From the NCBI GenBank assembly GCA_029213165.1, contig JARGNO010000041.1, positions 1 to 35,587 on the forward strand: 35,587 bases of DNA, written 5' to 3'. Below the pieces are notes generated by a model. That model saw nothing but the letters and a program-made list of their open reading frames with translations, was not told the DNA's origin and did no database searches. Below are positions 20,424-25,691 of this stretch, one piece after another. Positions within the stretch are counted from its first letter, which is position 1. Each line of letters begins with the position of its first letter. Made by a program: the position numbers and the translations under genes. The DNA comes from Minwuia sp. Its GTDB lineage: Bacteria; Pseudomonadota; Alphaproteobacteria; Minwuiales; Minwuiaceae.

Positions 20424-21227
20424 TCAGTCCTTGTCGTGGATCCGGTGCGGATTGACCATGCCCATGACGTTGAAGCCACTGTCGACGTGGTGGATCTCGC
20501 CGGTCACGCCAGCGGACAGGTCGGACAGGAAATAGACACCGGCACCGCCGACGTCTTCCTGCGTGATGGCACGCTGCAGCGGCGCATGATCGCGGGTCCA
20601 GCCGTAGACATAACGCGCATCGCCGACAGCGGAGCCGGAGATCGTCCGCATCGGCCCGGCGGATATGGCATTGGCACGGATCTGCTGCGGACCCAGGTCC
20701 ACGGCGATGTAGCGAACGCTGGCCTCCAGCGCCGCCTTGGCAACACCCATGACGTTGTAACTCGGCATCCAGCGTTCCGATCCTGCGAAAGACAGGGTCA
20801 GCAGGCTGCCGCCGTTTGTCATCAGTGGCGCGGCCAGACGCGCGGTTTCCGTGAAGGAATAGCAACTGATCGCCATCGTGTTGCTGAAGTTGCTCGCAGT
20901 GGTGTCGATGTAGCGTCCCGAGAGTTCACTCTTGTCGGAATAGGCCACCGCATGCAGGACGAAATCCAGCCTGCCCCAGGTACTGGAGACCCGATCGAAG
21001 ACCCGCTCCAGATCGCCGTCACGGGTGACGTCACAATTCTCCAGAAACGCCCCGCCGACCTGGTCGACCAGTGGTTTCGCACGCTTCAGGAAGGCATCGC
21101 CCTGATAGGTGAATCCCAGTTCGGCACCCTGATCATGCGCCGCCCGGGCAATGGCCCAGGCAATGGAATGGTCGTTCGCCACACCCATGATCAGGCCGCG
21201 GCGACCCTGCATCAGTTTGTCAGCCAT
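20424..21227 (-). CDS. fabI: Enoyl-[acyl-carrier-protein] reductase (NADH)
   Basis: A 267-residue short-chain dehydrogenase-type enoyl-ACP reductase that finishes each fatty-acid elongation cycle. The cofactor loop reads GRRGLIMGVANDHSIAWAIA. The catalytic Tyr157 and Lys164 lie in SYNVMGVAKAALEASVRY, and the C-terminus includes SAGPMRTISGSA and LSAGVTGEIHHVDSGFNV. The position equivalent to E. coli Tyr146 is Phe147 (LTLSFAGSER), a small departure from the E. coli active site. It is the last gene of fabA-fabB-fabI and starts four bases after the fabB stop, so the operon is tightly coupled. It targets the type II fatty-acid system in the cytosol. Confidence 0.94.
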   Translation of the reverse strand: MADKLMQGRRGLIMGVANDHSIAWAIARAAHDQGAELGFTYQGDAFLKRAKPLVDQVGGAFLENCDVTRDGDLERVFDRVSSTWGRLDFVLHAVAYSDKSELSGRYIDTTASNFSNTMAISCYSFTETARLAAPLMTNGGSLLTLSFAGSERWMPSYNVMGVAKAALEASVRYIAVDLGPQQIRANAISAGPMRTISGSAVGDARYVYGWTRDHAPLQRAITQEDVGGAGVYFLSDLSAGVTGEIHHVDSGFNVMGMVNPHRIHDKD

Positions 21228-21231
21228 GCCT

Positions 21232-22455
21232 TCAGTCCTCGAACCGCTTGAAGATCAGGCTGGCATTGGTGCCGCCAAATCCGAAGCTGTTCGACATGAC
21301 GCAATTCAGGTTCGCATCGTCGATGCGTTGCCGTACCAGGGGATAGTCGCCGGCCCCTTCGTCCAGGTTCCTGATATTCGCCGATTCTGCCAGGAAGTTG
21401 TTGTTCAGCATCAGCAGGGAGTAGATCGCCTCCTGGACGCCCGCCGCGCCCTGGCTGTGGCCTGTCAGGCTCTTGGTGGAGCTGACCCAGGGCAGGTCCC
21501 GGCCTTCGAACGCGGCGCGGATGGCATTCAGTTCAATGATGTCGCCGACCGGCGTCGATGTGCCATGGGCGTTGATGTAATCCACCCGGGTATCACCGAT
21601 GGTGGACATTGCCAGCTTCATGCAGCGCTCCGCCCCTTCGCCGGACGGTGCCACCATGTCCACCCCGTCCGAGGTCGCGGCATAGCCGACGATCTCCGCA
21701 TGGATCTTCGCGCCGCGGGCTTTCGCGTGCTCCAGTTCCTCGAGCACCAGGATGCCGCCGCCGCCGGAAATGACGAAACCGTCACGGTCGCGGTCATAGG
21801 CGCGGCTCGCCTCCGTCGGGCGATCATTGTACTTGCTGGACATGGCACCCATGGCATCGAACAGCATCGACAGGGTCCAGTGCAGTTCCTCCCCGCCGCC
21901 GGCGAAGATGATGTCCTGCTTGCCCAGCTGGATCGTCTCCATGGCATTGCCGATGCAATGCGCGCTGGTGGAACAGGCAGAGGAGATGGAATAGCTCATC
22001 CCCTTGATCTTCATCGCCGTCGAAAGGTTTGCGGAATTGGTCGATGACATGCAGCGCGGCACCATGTAGGGGCCCATGCGCTTCACGCCCTTCTCCCGCG
22101 CGATATCCGCGGCCTGAACCTGATTTGAGGTCGAGGGGCCGCCGGAACCTGCGATCAGCCCGGTGCGCGGATTGGAGACGTCATCTTCCTCCAGCCCCGC
22201 ATCGGCAATCGCCTGTTTCATGGCAATGTAGTTGTAGGCCGCGCCGCCACCCATGAAGCGCAGCACGCGCCGATCAATGTGGTCTGCCGGATCCAGATCG
22301 ATTGAGCCATGAATCTGGCTGCGCATGCCGACCTCGGCATATTCCGGCGCGAACTCGATGCCGGAACGTGCGCTCTTCAGGGACTCCACGACTTCCCCAG
22401 CATCGTTGCCGATCGACGAAACGATACCCAGCCCTGTAACAACAACCCGTTTCAA
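21232..22455 (-). CDS. fabB: 3-oxoacyl-[acyl-carrier-protein] synthase I
   Basis: A 407-residue condensing enzyme that is needed, with FabA, to elongate unsaturated acyl chains. The Cys-His-His triad is C161 ([12 protein letters not shown]), H297 ([13 protein letters not shown]) and H333 ([12 protein letters not shown]), within two residues of the E. coli FabB numbering. [18 protein letters not shown] and [14 protein letters not shown] are also family signatures. It lies 18 bases downstream of fabA. The fabA-fabB pairing identifies it as FabB rather than FabF. Together with FabA it implies anaerobic-type unsaturated fatty-acid synthesis. Confidence 0.96.
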
Positions 22456-22473
22456 GAATAGCCCTCAATTGTA

Positions 22474-22983
22474 TCAGGTGGTGGTGAACAGCCCGACGCG
22501 CATGTCCTTGGCCGTATAGATTTCCTCGCCGTCGGCCTTCACGATGCCGTCCGCGATGCCCAGCACCAGCCGACGCGCGATCGTGCGCTTGATGGACAGA
22601 TGATAGGTAACCAGCTTCACGGTTTCCAGAACCTGGCCGCCGAATTTGACCTCGCCGACGCCCAGGGCCCGACCGCGACCGGGCAGCCCTAGCCAGCCGA
22701 GATAGAAACCGACGGCCTGCCACATGGCATCCAGTCCCAGACAGCCAGGCATCACGGGATCGGTCTCGAAATGGCATTTGAAGAACCAGTGGTCCGGCGT
22801 CACATCCAGCTCCGCCAGGATCTCGCCCTTGCCGTAGCTGCCGCCCTCGTCACTGATCCGCGTGATCCGGTCGAACATCAGCATCGGAGGCAGGGGCAGA
22901 CGGGCGTTCCCGGGGCCAAAAAGCTCCCCGTGGCCGCATTGCAGGAGTTCTTCGTAGGAAAAGCTGCTCTTCCGATCCGTCAA
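22474..22983 (-). CDS. fabA: 3-hydroxydecanoyl-[acyl-carrier-protein] dehydratase/isomerase
   Basis: A 169-residue hot-dog dehydratase-isomerase that introduces the cis double bond in type II fatty-acid synthesis. The catalytic His71 and Asp85 lie in [20 protein letters not shown] followed by DAMWQ. A TTG at 22983 is the start: it gives [20 protein letters not shown], colinear with E. coli FabA (172 residues), with an AGG about seven bases upstream. The open frame runs on to 23280, but that extension is out of family and crosses the irr promoter. It is the first gene of fabABI, divergent from the iron regulator irr. Confidence 0.94.
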
Positions 22984-23166
22984 TGTGTCGCCTCGCTTCA
23001 AGGTTCGGCTGGTCAGATGGCCATTGTGGAGGCGACCCGCCCATGGTGATTTGTGTGGAGGACTATAGCCATATGACACTGGCGACAAAACCCGCAAAAC
23101 AGGCCCCTTTCGCCAGTTGCCCGGTGGGGGCTTCTCTTGCGACCCACTCGTAACTATATTGCAGAC

Positions 23167-23580
23167 ATGACTGAGACGGTTGACACGACGATTGCAGACC
23201 AGCTTCGCAGCTCGGGACTGCGTCCGACCCGGCAACGTGTGGCGCTGGCGGAGCTGTTGCTGTCCGCCGGACACCGGCACCTGACGGCGGAGATGCTGTT
23301 TGACGAGGCGCGCCAGGCTGGAGTCCCGGTTTCACTGGCGACGATATACAATTGCCTGCATCAGTTCACGCAGGCCGGAATGGTGCGAGAGGTCGTGGTT
23401 GATCCGGGCCGATCCTATTTCGACACCAACGTTGCAGAGCATCATCATTTCTATCACGAGAGTTCGGGCAAGCTTACCGACATTCCGGGTGAGACCATCG
23501 CGCTGGGGCATCTGCCGACGGCACCCGATGGCATGGTGATCGACCGCGCTGAGGTCATCATCCGGTTGCGCGACGCCTGA
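23167..23580 (+). CDS. irr: Irr, Fur-family iron response regulator
   Basis: A 137-residue Fur-superfamily regulator of the Irr type, which in alphaproteobacteria senses haem and iron status and binds ICE motifs. Diagnostic stretches are [35 protein letters not shown] then [35 protein letters not shown] with the HHH motif of Irr, and [17 protein letters not shown]. The ATG at 23167 is preferred over the in-frame TTG at 23137, since family N-termini are short and variable. No Shine-Dalgarno precedes it, and TATATT at 23155-23160 is only six bases upstream, so the mRNA could be leaderless. It is divergent from fabA and upstream of the ICE-controlled rubrerythrin gene. No Cys-rich haem regulatory motif is visible. 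Confidence 0.92.
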
Positions 23581-23618
23581 CAGGGGTGCGCCGGTCCGGC
23601 ATGTGTCCGGAAATCGTC

Positions 23619-23635
23619 TTTGGAATAATTCCAAA
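23619..23635. promoter_or_regulatory. ICE-like Irr box upstream of the rubrerythrin gene
   Basis: TTTGGAA-TAA-TTCCAAA is a perfect inverted repeat. It matches the alphaproteobacterial iron control element (TTTAGAA-N3-TTCTAAA) at every arm position except one, which is changed symmetrically in both arms. It lies between irr and the rubrerythrin gene, with its right end three bases from the -35 of the promoter at 23639. The centre is about 46 bases before the predicted transcription start, so Irr could either activate or repress from here. Confidence 0.72.
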
Positions 23636-23638
23636 CTA

Positions 23639-23666
23639 TTGACCTCTCCCGTTCAAACCCCATAAT
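23639..23666 (+). promoter_or_regulatory. Sigma-70 promoter of the rubrerythrin gene
   Basis: TTGACC at 23639-23644 and CATAAT at 23661-23666 are separated by 16 bases. The predicted start is near 23673, leaving a leader of about 55 bases that includes the strong ribosome site AGGAGG at 23711. The ICE-like palindrome abuts the -35 on its upstream side. Confidence 0.6.
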
Positions 23667-23727
23667 TGAAGGGTCGGCTGTTCAGGACGAGCATCCGGCA
23701 CGTCATCATGAGGAGGAGGACAAGGTC

Positions 23728-24144
23728 ATGTCGCTCAAGGGTTCGAAGACTGAACAGAGCCTGAAGGAAGCCTTTGCGGGCGAATCCCAGGCAAACCGCC
23801 GTTATCTGTATTTCGCGCAGAAGGCTGACGTCGAAGGTTACAATGACGTCTCCAGCGTTTTCCGTTCCACCGCCGAGGGCGAGACGGGTCATGCGCACGG
23901 CCATCTGAAGTTCCTGGAGGAAGTGGGCGACCCGGCGACGGGTGAGCCGATCGGCTCCACGGAGAACAACCTGAAGGCCGCCATCGCGGGCGAGACGCAT
24001 GAGTACACGGACATGTATCCGGGTATGGCGAAGACCGCGCGCGACGAAGGCTTCGACGAGATCGCCGACTGGTTCGAGACCCTGGCGAAGGCAGAGAAGA
24101 GCCATGCCGGTCGTTTCCAGAAGGCTCTGGACTCGATGGGCTGA
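23728..24144 (+). CDS. Rubrerythrin, erythrin-only (no rubredoxin domain)
   Basis: A 138-residue diiron four-helix protein of the rubrerythrin family, which reduces peroxide. The iron-binding helices are visible: [52 protein letters not shown] and [17 protein letters not shown]. The Glu of each ES/EG/ET/EK motif and the His residues are in place. The C-terminal rubredoxin domain of classical rubrerythrin is missing, so an external electron donor is needed. AGGAGG precedes the ATG strongly. It sits behind an ICE motif and directly downstream of irr, and ahead of a Fe-S oxidoreductase gene that may be the donor. A hairpin follows the stop. Confidence 0.92.
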
Positions 24145-24152
24145 CCGGATTT

Positions 24153-24178
24153 TCGGGGGCGGCGTGTGTCGCCCCCGA
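24153..24178 (+). terminator. Hairpin after the rubrerythrin gene, possible partial terminator
   Basis: TCGGGGGCG (24153-24161) pairs perfectly with CGCCCCCGA (24170-24178) around an 8-base loop. The stem is strong, but only the short TCATTCA follows, with no T-run. It begins eight bases after the rubrerythrin stop. It may act as a partial terminator or a 3'-end stabiliser, making rubrerythrin more abundant than the downstream products. Confidence 0.5.
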
Positions 24179-24341
24179 TCATTCATGCGGCGGGCTGCAC
24201 TGGTCAGCATCCCGCCAATGGGTCACCCGACGACCGATATCGCGCGTGTGGGTACGGGGATTTACCTGCGCGCTCGCCATGCCGGCGAAGCTGCTGATGC
24301 AGCCAGCCCCGGCAATGCCTGAATCATGGTGGAGATGACAG

Positions 24342-25691
24342 ATGGAAGGCGGCCTTGGTGCGCCGGAGCGGCATCCGCTCGACTGGCAGAGTGATGATTT
24401 CTACAACAAGGAAGCAATTGACGAGGAACTGCGGCGGGTGTTCGACATCTGTCATGGTTGCCGCCTCTGCTTCAATCTCTGCGACAGTTTCCCGCGCCTG
24501 TTCGACCTGATCGACGAGAGCGAATCCGGCGAACTCGATACCGTCGACTCGGTCGATTTCAAGCCGGTCGTCGATGCCTGCACGCTGTGTGACATGTGCT
24601 TCATGTCCACCTGCCCCTACACGCCGCCGCATGAGTTCCAGCTCGACTTTCCGCATCTGATGCTGCGCTATCGCGCGACGGAACACCGGGACGGCAAGAC
24701 GCCGTTCTGGGACCGGCAGATGACGAAGACCGACCGTAACGGAAAACTGGCCGGTCTGACCTCCGGCATTGCCAACTGGGCGACGGACCGGGGCAACCGG
24801 ATCACCCGGCCGATCCTGGAAGACATTGCCGATGTCGACCGGAACGCGGAGCTGCCGAAGTTCCATGCGAAGAGCTTCACGGCCCATGCGGCCCATCCGC
24901 CGGCCCGCGACACCAGTGCGCCCGCGGCGGCTCGCAAGGCGGTGCTCTATGCCACCTGCTTCGTGAACTACAACAATCCGAATATCGGTATCGCCACCCA
25001 GGCCATCCTGGCCGCGAATGGCGTGGAGACAGAGGTGGTCTACCCCGAATGCTGCGGGATGCCCCAGCTCGAACAGGGCGATCTGGATGACGTGGCACGC
25101 CGTGCGAAGAACGTGGCCCTGGCCATGAAGCCCTGGATCGAGGATGGCTATGAAGTCATCGGCCTGGTGCCGTCCTGCGCACTGATGCTGAAGTTCGAAT
25201 GGCCGCTGCTGCTGCCCGACGATCCGGATGTCGCGCGCCTGTCGAAAGCCACGAAGGACGTGGCCGAGTATGTTGTCGACATCGCCCGCAACGAGGGACT
25301 GGTGGCGGAACCGAAGCCGCTGGAAGGCGGCGTCAGCCTGCATCTCGCCTGCCATGCCCGTGCCCAGAACATGGGTCAGAAGGCAGCGGACATGTTGCGG
25401 CTGATCCCCGGGATGGATCTGAAGATCATCGAGCGCTGTTCCGGTCACGGCGGCAGTTGGGGCATCAAGAAGGACAATTTCGAGACCGCGCTGAAGGTCG
25501 GCAAGAACGCGGCCCGTGCCGCCGGGCGGGAGGACAAGGCCCATGTGGCGTCCGAGTGTCCGCTGGCCGGAGTTCACATGCTGCAGGGCATGGAGCGGCT
25601 GAACCAGGAGAACCCCGATACCTTCAAGGCACCGCCATCCGTGACCAGCCATCCCGTGGAACTGTTTGCCCGGGCCTGTGGCCTGCTGTGA
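24342..25691 (+). CDS. Fe-S oxidoreductase with two [4Fe-4S] motifs and CCG domains (GlpC/HdrD-like)
   Basis: A 449-residue electron-transfer protein. Two ferredoxin-like motifs are near the N-terminus: CHGCRLCFNLC and CTLCDMCFMSTCPY. Two cysteine-rich (CCG) domains follow: ATCFVNYNNPNIG with YPECCGMPQLEQG, and HLACHARAQNMGQ with ERCSGHGGSWGIK. This layout resembles GlpC and the HdrD-type heterodisulfide reductase subunits. In the second domain the CCG reads CSG, so one non-cubane cluster may be altered. There is no membrane segment. The start has GGAG seven bases upstream. It lies between an erythrin-only rubrerythrin and a DUF3501 gene, a combination I recall recurring in proteobacteria. 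The inferred role is electron donor or a partner in redox chemistry of unknown substrate. Confidence 0.88.
   Translation: MEGGLGAPERHPLDWQSDDFYNKEAIDEELRRVFDICHGCRLCFNLCDSFPRLFDLIDESESGELDTVDSVDFKPVVDACTLCDMCFMSTCPYTPPHEFQLDFPHLMLRYRATEHRDGKTPFWDRQMTKTDRNGKLAGLTSGIANWATDRGNRITRPILEDIADVDRNAELPKFHAKSFTAHAAHPPARDTSAPAAARKAVLYATCFVNYNNPNIGIATQAILAANGVETEVVYPECCGMPQLEQGDLDDVARRAKNVALAMKPWIEDGYEVIGLVPSCALMLKFEWPLLLPDDPDVARLSKATKDVAEYVVDIARNEGLVAEPKPLEGGVSLHLACHARAQNMGQKAADMLRLIPGMDLKIIERCSGHGGSWGIKKDNFETALKVGKNAARAAGREDKAHVASECPLAGVHMLQGMERLNQENPDTFKAPPSVTSHPVELFARACGLL

Follow-up and report, generated by a model that had tools for sequence, protein, structure and literature searches.

Which regulator governs the rubrerythrin operon that follows irr in the window (the whole stretch of 35,587 nucleotides of Minwuia sp. 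DNA analysed here), and through which operator? Irr is a haem-sensing protein of the Fur family that binds palindromic boxes of the kind described below when it is haem-free. The gap between irr and the rubrerythrin gene (rbr) spans 147 nt and contains such a palindrome, TTTGGAA-TAA-TTCCAAA, at positions 23619-23635 (TTTGGAATAATTCCAAA); rbr is followed by genes for a GlpC-like Fe-S protein and a DUF3501 protein. We propose that this palindrome is, very probably, the operator by which Irr controls the promoter of rbr-RFO-DUF3501. Our confidence concerns the identity of the operator and does not extend to the sign of control. The relevant features of the window are these:

23167 to 23580, plus strand: irr, a Fur-family iron response regulator of 137 aa with an HHH motif (NCBIfam NF045678 and NF045677; PF01475)
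23595 to 23611, plus strand: weak terminator-like hairpin 3' of irr (pattern scan only)
23619 to 23635, no strand assigned: ICE-type palindrome TTTGGAA-TAA-TTCCAAA, proposed Irr operator (pattern searches, alignment of nine genomes of the order, 65 irr-rbr pairs)
23639 to 23644, plus strand: -35 hexamer TTGACC (promoter scan, conserved position)
23661 to 23666, plus strand: -10 hexamer CATAAT, spacer 16 (promoter scan, alignment)
23710 to 23719, plus strand: ribosome-binding site GAGGAGGAGG before rbr, read from the sequence (GGAGGA invariant in nine aligned sequences)
23728 to 24144, plus strand: rbr, rubredoxin-less (aerobic-type) rubrerythrin of 138 aa (PF02915, 106.4 bits; phmmer matches)
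24342 to 25691, plus strand: RFO, GlpC-like Fe-S oxidoreductase (PF02754; GlpC-family matches below the equivalog cut-off; cluster as in PMC5114695)
25731 to 26324, plus strand: DUF3501 protein (PF12007, 182.5 bits)

By curated cut-off, the gene directly upstream of the box is assigned as encoding Irr. Its product scores 204.7 bits against the IrrA model NF045678 (cut-off 150) and 187.5 bits against the Irr model NF045677 (cut-off 170), and 68.7 bits or less against PerR models. The HXH haem motif, as defined in the available portions of PMC3413700 and PMC7762939, is present in its translation (AEHHHFYHE). Fur-family matches in the window's genome are two in number, Irr itself and one Fur-like protein whose best model is Fur (97 bits, below the cut-off of that model). 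Divergent from irr, on the minus strand at 20424-22980, lie fabI, fabB and fabA; the neighbourhood of irr and fabA-fabB is also seen in Rhizobiales.

The presumed target belongs to the aerobic type of rubrerythrins: the product of rbr has 138 aa with rubrerythrin/ferritin-like Pfam matches only, and proteins with PF02754 and PF12007 are encoded downstream. In phmmer searches it matches 9onm, 4di0 and 8fuh across residues 2-137. As the Pfam matches are confined to rubrerythrin/ferritin-like domains, a C-terminal VIT1-like membrane domain is absent from this 138-aa protein. Apart from the rbr product, PF02915 is matched in the window's genome by a COQ7 protein alone, and no MbfA was found there. 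Cardenas et al. 2016 (PMC5114695) introduced the name RBR-RFO-DUF3501 for this gene cluster; a search of the main text of that article for Fur, Irr, PerR, regulator and promoter as whole words gives no match. Proteins of the aerobic-type rubrerythrin operon have been predicted in mitochondria of some protists (PMC7050145, as far as its accessible part tells).

The sequence-only reading had described the box as a perfect palindrome that adjoins a sigma-70 promoter and differs from the ICE consensus at one symmetrical position, and this description holds. The 7-base arms are perfect reverse complements, with asymmetry confined to the 3-base centre, and the exact form TTTNGAANNNTTCNAAA has a single match in the 4.12 Mb draft genome, at 23619-23635 (reversed control 0). 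The ICE consensus is TTTAGAAnnnTTCTAAA, i.e. TTTAGAA-N3-TTCTAAA; we take the window box to depart from it at arm position 4 only, where the symmetrical replacement of A by G keeps palindromy. The palindrome is followed by CTA and then by the promoter TTGACC-16-CATAAT (23639-23666), which has 10/12 matches; scanning of 22900-24500 gave two promoter-like sites, this one included, compared with 0.4 in shuffles. The box thus ends 3 nt ahead of the -35 hexamer and does not overlap the -10. Judged from the -10, transcription would start near 23673, which would place the box at about -54 to -38, with its centre near -46. The relaxed pattern TTTRGAANNNTTCYAAA is matched by the window box at 14/14 positions. 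No further places within 3 mismatches of the palindrome occur across the window (expected 0.01), and genome-wide there is no excess of boxes beyond the 23619-23635 site, as five places with at most 2 mismatches to TTTRGAANNNTTCYAAA stand against four for the reversed control. Rarity alone is therefore weak evidence, and it is the comparative data that decide.

Within the order, rbr lies downstream of irr in all nine genomes examined (seven of one genus and two of sister genera), and in their alignment the box stands out against diverging flanks. The arms read TTTGGAA in 5/7 genomes of the genus (TTTGGAATAATTCCAA) and TTTAGAA in 2/7 (TTTAGAATTATTCTAA); two congeners carry TTTAGAATTATTCTAAT. Because the two arms change together between congeners, from GG/CC to AG/CT, palindromy is kept. 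The boxes of the sister genera are degenerate, with 10/14 and 11/14 matching positions. A code of co-variation between recognition helix and arms was considered and rejected, since YNCLHQF is found in TTTGGAA genomes and in both TTTAGAA congeners of the genus; at further loci, GG arms go together with NTL, NSL or NAL.

A wider sample of 89 rbr loci was composed of the best 80 of 578 relatives of one protein and the nine genomes of the order; a box was counted at 12/14 or more, and irr was regarded as adjacent within 800 nt upstream of rbr. Adjacent irr was found in 58/89 loci of this sample. Among these 58, the box reaches at least 12/14 in 49 (mean best match 12.5, null 9.0) and 51 beat shuffles at p<0.05; for the loci of the same sample that lack adjacent irr, the respective counts are 11/31 and 13/31. 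Together with six more loci and L012, the 58 make 65 irr-rbr pairs in 50 clusters, related genomes not being independent. The box is present at 12/14 or better in 42/50 cluster representatives and falls below this in 8/50, four of which (L002, L033, L097, L098) show by eye a degraded box at the same place. The orthologous intergenic regions, where loss of the palindrome had been named as a refutation, have thus kept the box, in the genus as well as in these 42 representatives. The promoter layout is conserved with it: TTGAC follows the box after 3-6 nt in 37/42 representatives (3 nt in 27, 4 nt in four, 5 nt in five and 6 nt in one), compared with 0.34% of shuffles. Within 80 nt of the box taken, TTGAC is lacking in L003, L012, L019, L020 and L053. 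L012 falls into this group because the third of its three tandem boxes was taken; the middle one has TTGAC at 5 nt. L053, of SAR11, has its only box match 31 nt before the start codon; among the eight SAR11 loci for which it stands, several show the layout, at 87 nt. The SAR11 loci L055, L057, L071 and L074 have the box upstream of the -35. Tandem boxes occur as three in the 119 nt before rbr at L012 and as pairs 32-48 nt apart at L156, L188/L198 and L204. Site, promoter, regulator and target as first read are all borne out by the Irr score and by the layout conserved with rbr. As to the suggestion that a soluble rubrerythrin under Irr would be unusual, irr and the box beside a soluble rubrerythrin gene are common in the loci examined and not peculiar to this genome.

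The layout was also searched for by geometry only in 385 genomes of the class, using TRGAANNNTTCYAA, 4-6 nt, TTGAC, 15-19 nt and AT, with the reversed pattern as control. The pattern has 45 places in 44/385 genomes and the reversed pattern two. With 44 genomes showing this strict geometry, the layout is therefore recurrent in the class and far from universal. At 30 of the places the locus was examined: 21 precede rbr, the window and two congeners included, and 19 of these 21 have irr upstream. The other nine precede KatG-like (one), SufB-like (four, one genus), AhpC-like (one) and Redoxin-like (one) genes and two unclear ORFs, the names being given by likeness to Pfam-typed proteins. In one low-GC genus (L140, L141, L213-L216), the box, five nt and TTGACA precede sufB-like genes.

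Loci at which irr is not adjacent allow the box and the regulator to be compared across genomes. An Irr-like gene was defined by at least 100 bits to NF045678. Among the 31 rbr loci of this kind (again from the best 80 of 578 relatives and the nine order genomes), the operator is present in 11/12 with an Irr-like gene in the genome and in 3/19 without; the corresponding Fisher one-sided p=4e-5 (p=2e-4 leaving out L012 and L029; 10/12 and p=3e-4 with L029, whose box satisfies just the looser 12/14 rule, counted as boxless) is weakened by shared ancestry and incomplete MAGs. Three sphingomonad loci (L024, L031, L040) have neither Irr-like gene nor box. An Irr-like gene accompanies a merely degenerate box in the genome of L070, and a box of the gamma type precedes rbr in L017, L054 and L061, in whose genomes no Irr-like gene was found. 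That an Irr-like gene was overlooked in the genome of L054 was considered and rejected, as the extra Fur-family gene there is Zur-like by eye. At L054, the box at the start site is preceded by a second palindrome-like sequence, TTTAGACCTGGTCTAGA, which begins 28 nt further upstream.

This gamma type comprises 12 loci with a related box downstream of the -35, 11 of them titled gammaproteobacterial and one (L007) only proteobacterium. In ten loci (L007, L017, L036, L042, L045, L046, L054, L061, L065, L067), the box starts 7-12 nt downstream of the predicted -10, and in L021 and L075 it overlaps that hexamer; a box over the start site is in the position of a repressor. Its form is TTAGAC or TAGAC-N3-GTCTAA in 7/12 and closer to ICE in the other five. 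Titles give no sharp division between alpha and gamma layouts: that of L010 is the layout of the alphas, with irr adjacent, under the title Gammaproteobacteria. Irr-like proteins of 9/12 gamma-type genomes and of L070 score 107-138 bits to IrrA, below its cut-off of 150; for the five scored against further models, IrrA is the best model and the PerRA model gives 80-88 bits. In a tree with Irr and Fur sequences, the ten proteins make up a single clade (support 1.0), which groups with alpha Irr and is separate from Fur (support 0.88). As this tree contained no PerR, they may also be PerR-like sensors. A wholly different regulator of the gamma box was dropped as a candidate once Irr-like genes had been found in those genomes. 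It is tempting, although rather doubtful, to see here an old link between Irr and rubrerythrin control that spans Alpha- and Gammaproteobacteria with a relocated operator. In gammas it would lie over the start, mostly as TTAGAC-N3-GTCTAA, for classical repression; in alphas it would abut the -35 as TTTRGAA-N3-TTCYAAA, the regulator there having switched from repressor to activator.

Could the box serve a regulator other than Irr, be it Fur, a PerR or an unrelated protein, or be no operator at all? The first alternative, which we consider unlikely, can draw on the three box-bearing genomes with no Irr-like gene found and on the PerRA scores of the five gamma Irr-like proteins. On the other hand, the window's genome offers just Irr and one Fur-like protein as Fur-family candidates, and in many genomes the box stands beside irr, while at loci without adjacent irr it goes together with an Irr-like gene elsewhere in the genome. 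The second alternative, a palindrome due to chance or an AT-rich upstream promoter element that needs no regulator, would suit an AT-rich box placed where contacts of the RNA polymerase alpha subunit would be made. We regard it as highly improbable, given that the exact box is the sole one in 4.12 Mb, that its symmetric arms are kept through the change from GG/CC to AG/CT and that the geometry pattern outnumbers its reversed control by 45 places to two. An Irr operator is the reading we prefer. We infer also the binding of Irr, haem or peroxide as its signal, the transcription start site and the sign of control.

How would Irr act from such an operator? Haem-free Irr would occupy the 17 bp directly upstream of the -35, approximately -54 to -38 from the predicted start, and would cover, beside the -35, the region used by the tails of the RNA polymerase alpha subunit. 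For an Irr operator we give repression about an even chance, activation a somewhat smaller one and any other mode a slim one, and so lean slightly to repression, in which Irr would mask the -35 together with the stretch before it until removed by haem or peroxide. In the competing case of positive control, which we hold to be quite possible, haem-free Irr just upstream of the -35 would recruit RNA polymerase, and rbr would rise at low iron or haem. The box lies upstream of the -35 in 37/42 representatives, at exactly 3 nt in 27, as might be expected of an activator, but the spacing varies over 3-6 nt and a near-consensus -35 needs no activator. According to the accessible part of the review PMC7762939, direct activation is more frequent with Irr than with Fur or DtxR, and whether Irr activates or represses depends on where the ICE lies. 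The view of the sequence-only reading that the placement allows positive control is sustained to this extent, though the sign was over-read; positive control itself is not established, and a measured R. sphaeroides promoter of similar geometry, that of ccpA, is weakly repressed. In the part of PMC3413700 available, the Irr box of ccpA precedes its start by about 40 nt (about 38 predicted for the window), and absence of Irr raises ccpA expression 1.8-fold under iron limitation but does not alter it in normal iron. Position alone as proof of activation was rejected on these data. In Pelagibacter, rbr mRNA is up 1.57-fold under iron limitation (PMC2864753, available part), in agreement with activation, but it also changes in sulfur limitation and stationary phase (PMC5069961, likewise), so that the signal is not specific. 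Finally, part of the target genes have, in other lineages, a box that overlies the -10 or the start: rbr in gammas and, by eye, AhpC-like (L132, L133, L137) and Redoxin-like (L188, L200, L088) genes. One sign of control is therefore favoured over two, which speaks for repression, and is the simpler reading should rbr, peroxiredoxins, KatG and Dps belong to a single regulon.

Such genes would together make up a regulon of peroxide defence, and an Irr peroxide regulon in the genus and family is possible. Irr-type boxes there precede genes for a KatG-like peroxidase (L196, G003), Redoxin-family peroxiredoxins (L200, G004; L188, G001) and a Dps-like ferritin (L189, G002). In the window's genome, the lack of box excess at 2 mismatches means that an Irr regulon would be very small. 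Of the four other places at this threshold, L086 falls within an ORF, L089 within a frame of 305 residues and L087 at the beginning of an ORF that is ribosomal-protein-like by eye; the one that looks credible is L088, which precedes the gene of a Redoxin-family protein. The degenerate box of L088, TTTTAAATAATTCCAAA, lies at G000:C98:41523-41539 (L088:1501-1517), upstream of the Redoxin-family peroxiredoxin gene; the congener locus L200 has TTTAAAATAATTCCAAA at a gene like it.

Irr and its box are already known; the rubrerythrin operon is added here as their predicted target. In the literature searched that names both Irr and rubrerythrin, as far as its available text extends, Irr control of a soluble rubrerythrin is not stated, and mentions linked to Irr concern blr7895/MbfA-type proteins; the accessible part of PMC2864753 deals with rbr as well as Irr and draws no connection between the two. 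A stated regulator of the aerobic-type rubrerythrin operon was likewise not found in the literature searched, and an earlier prediction in Rodionov 2006 or Rudolph 2006 is possible. The operon is widespread in Proteobacteria, and a conserved predicted Irr operator supplies it with a directly testable regulator. It also lends weight to the view, put forward before, that Irr has a role in peroxide defence in addition to iron. Promoters with the box in two positions present a natural set for learning how position sets the sign of Irr.

PerR controls rubrerythrins and peroxidases. Systems based on it are likewise cases of Fur-family control over genes of peroxide defence; the regulator of the window scores as Irr, with 204.7 bits against 68.7 or less for PerR. 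Irr sites upstream of catalase-peroxidases were already proposed in Rodionov 2006, as told in the available part of PMC2464607; in contrast to those targets, the rubrerythrin operon is here the commonest neighbour of the box layout (21/30). The cluster of Cardenas et al. (PMC5114695, available part) has the same three genes as the window, with the rubredoxin domain absent, and the link to Irr is added here. MbfA, known from the accessible portions of PMC7762939 and PMC3413700, is membrane-bound and has a rubrerythrin-like domain under Irr control, whereas the window protein consists of 138 aa with a rubrerythrin domain only. The ICE of Irr targets in Alphaproteobacteria, such as mbfA and ccpA in R. 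sphaeroides (PMC3413700, available part, where bfr and blr7895 of B. japonicum are cited), is a close likeness, with a palindrome of the same kind and a regulator of the same family. The mbfA box is situated at the start, whereas that of the window lies just upstream of the -35, as in 37/42 representatives; the start of ccpA, about 40 nt past its box, comes close to the geometry of the window. From known Irr boxes, that of the window differs in its TTTGGAA arms and in its target, the operon of a soluble aerobic-type rubrerythrin beside irr.
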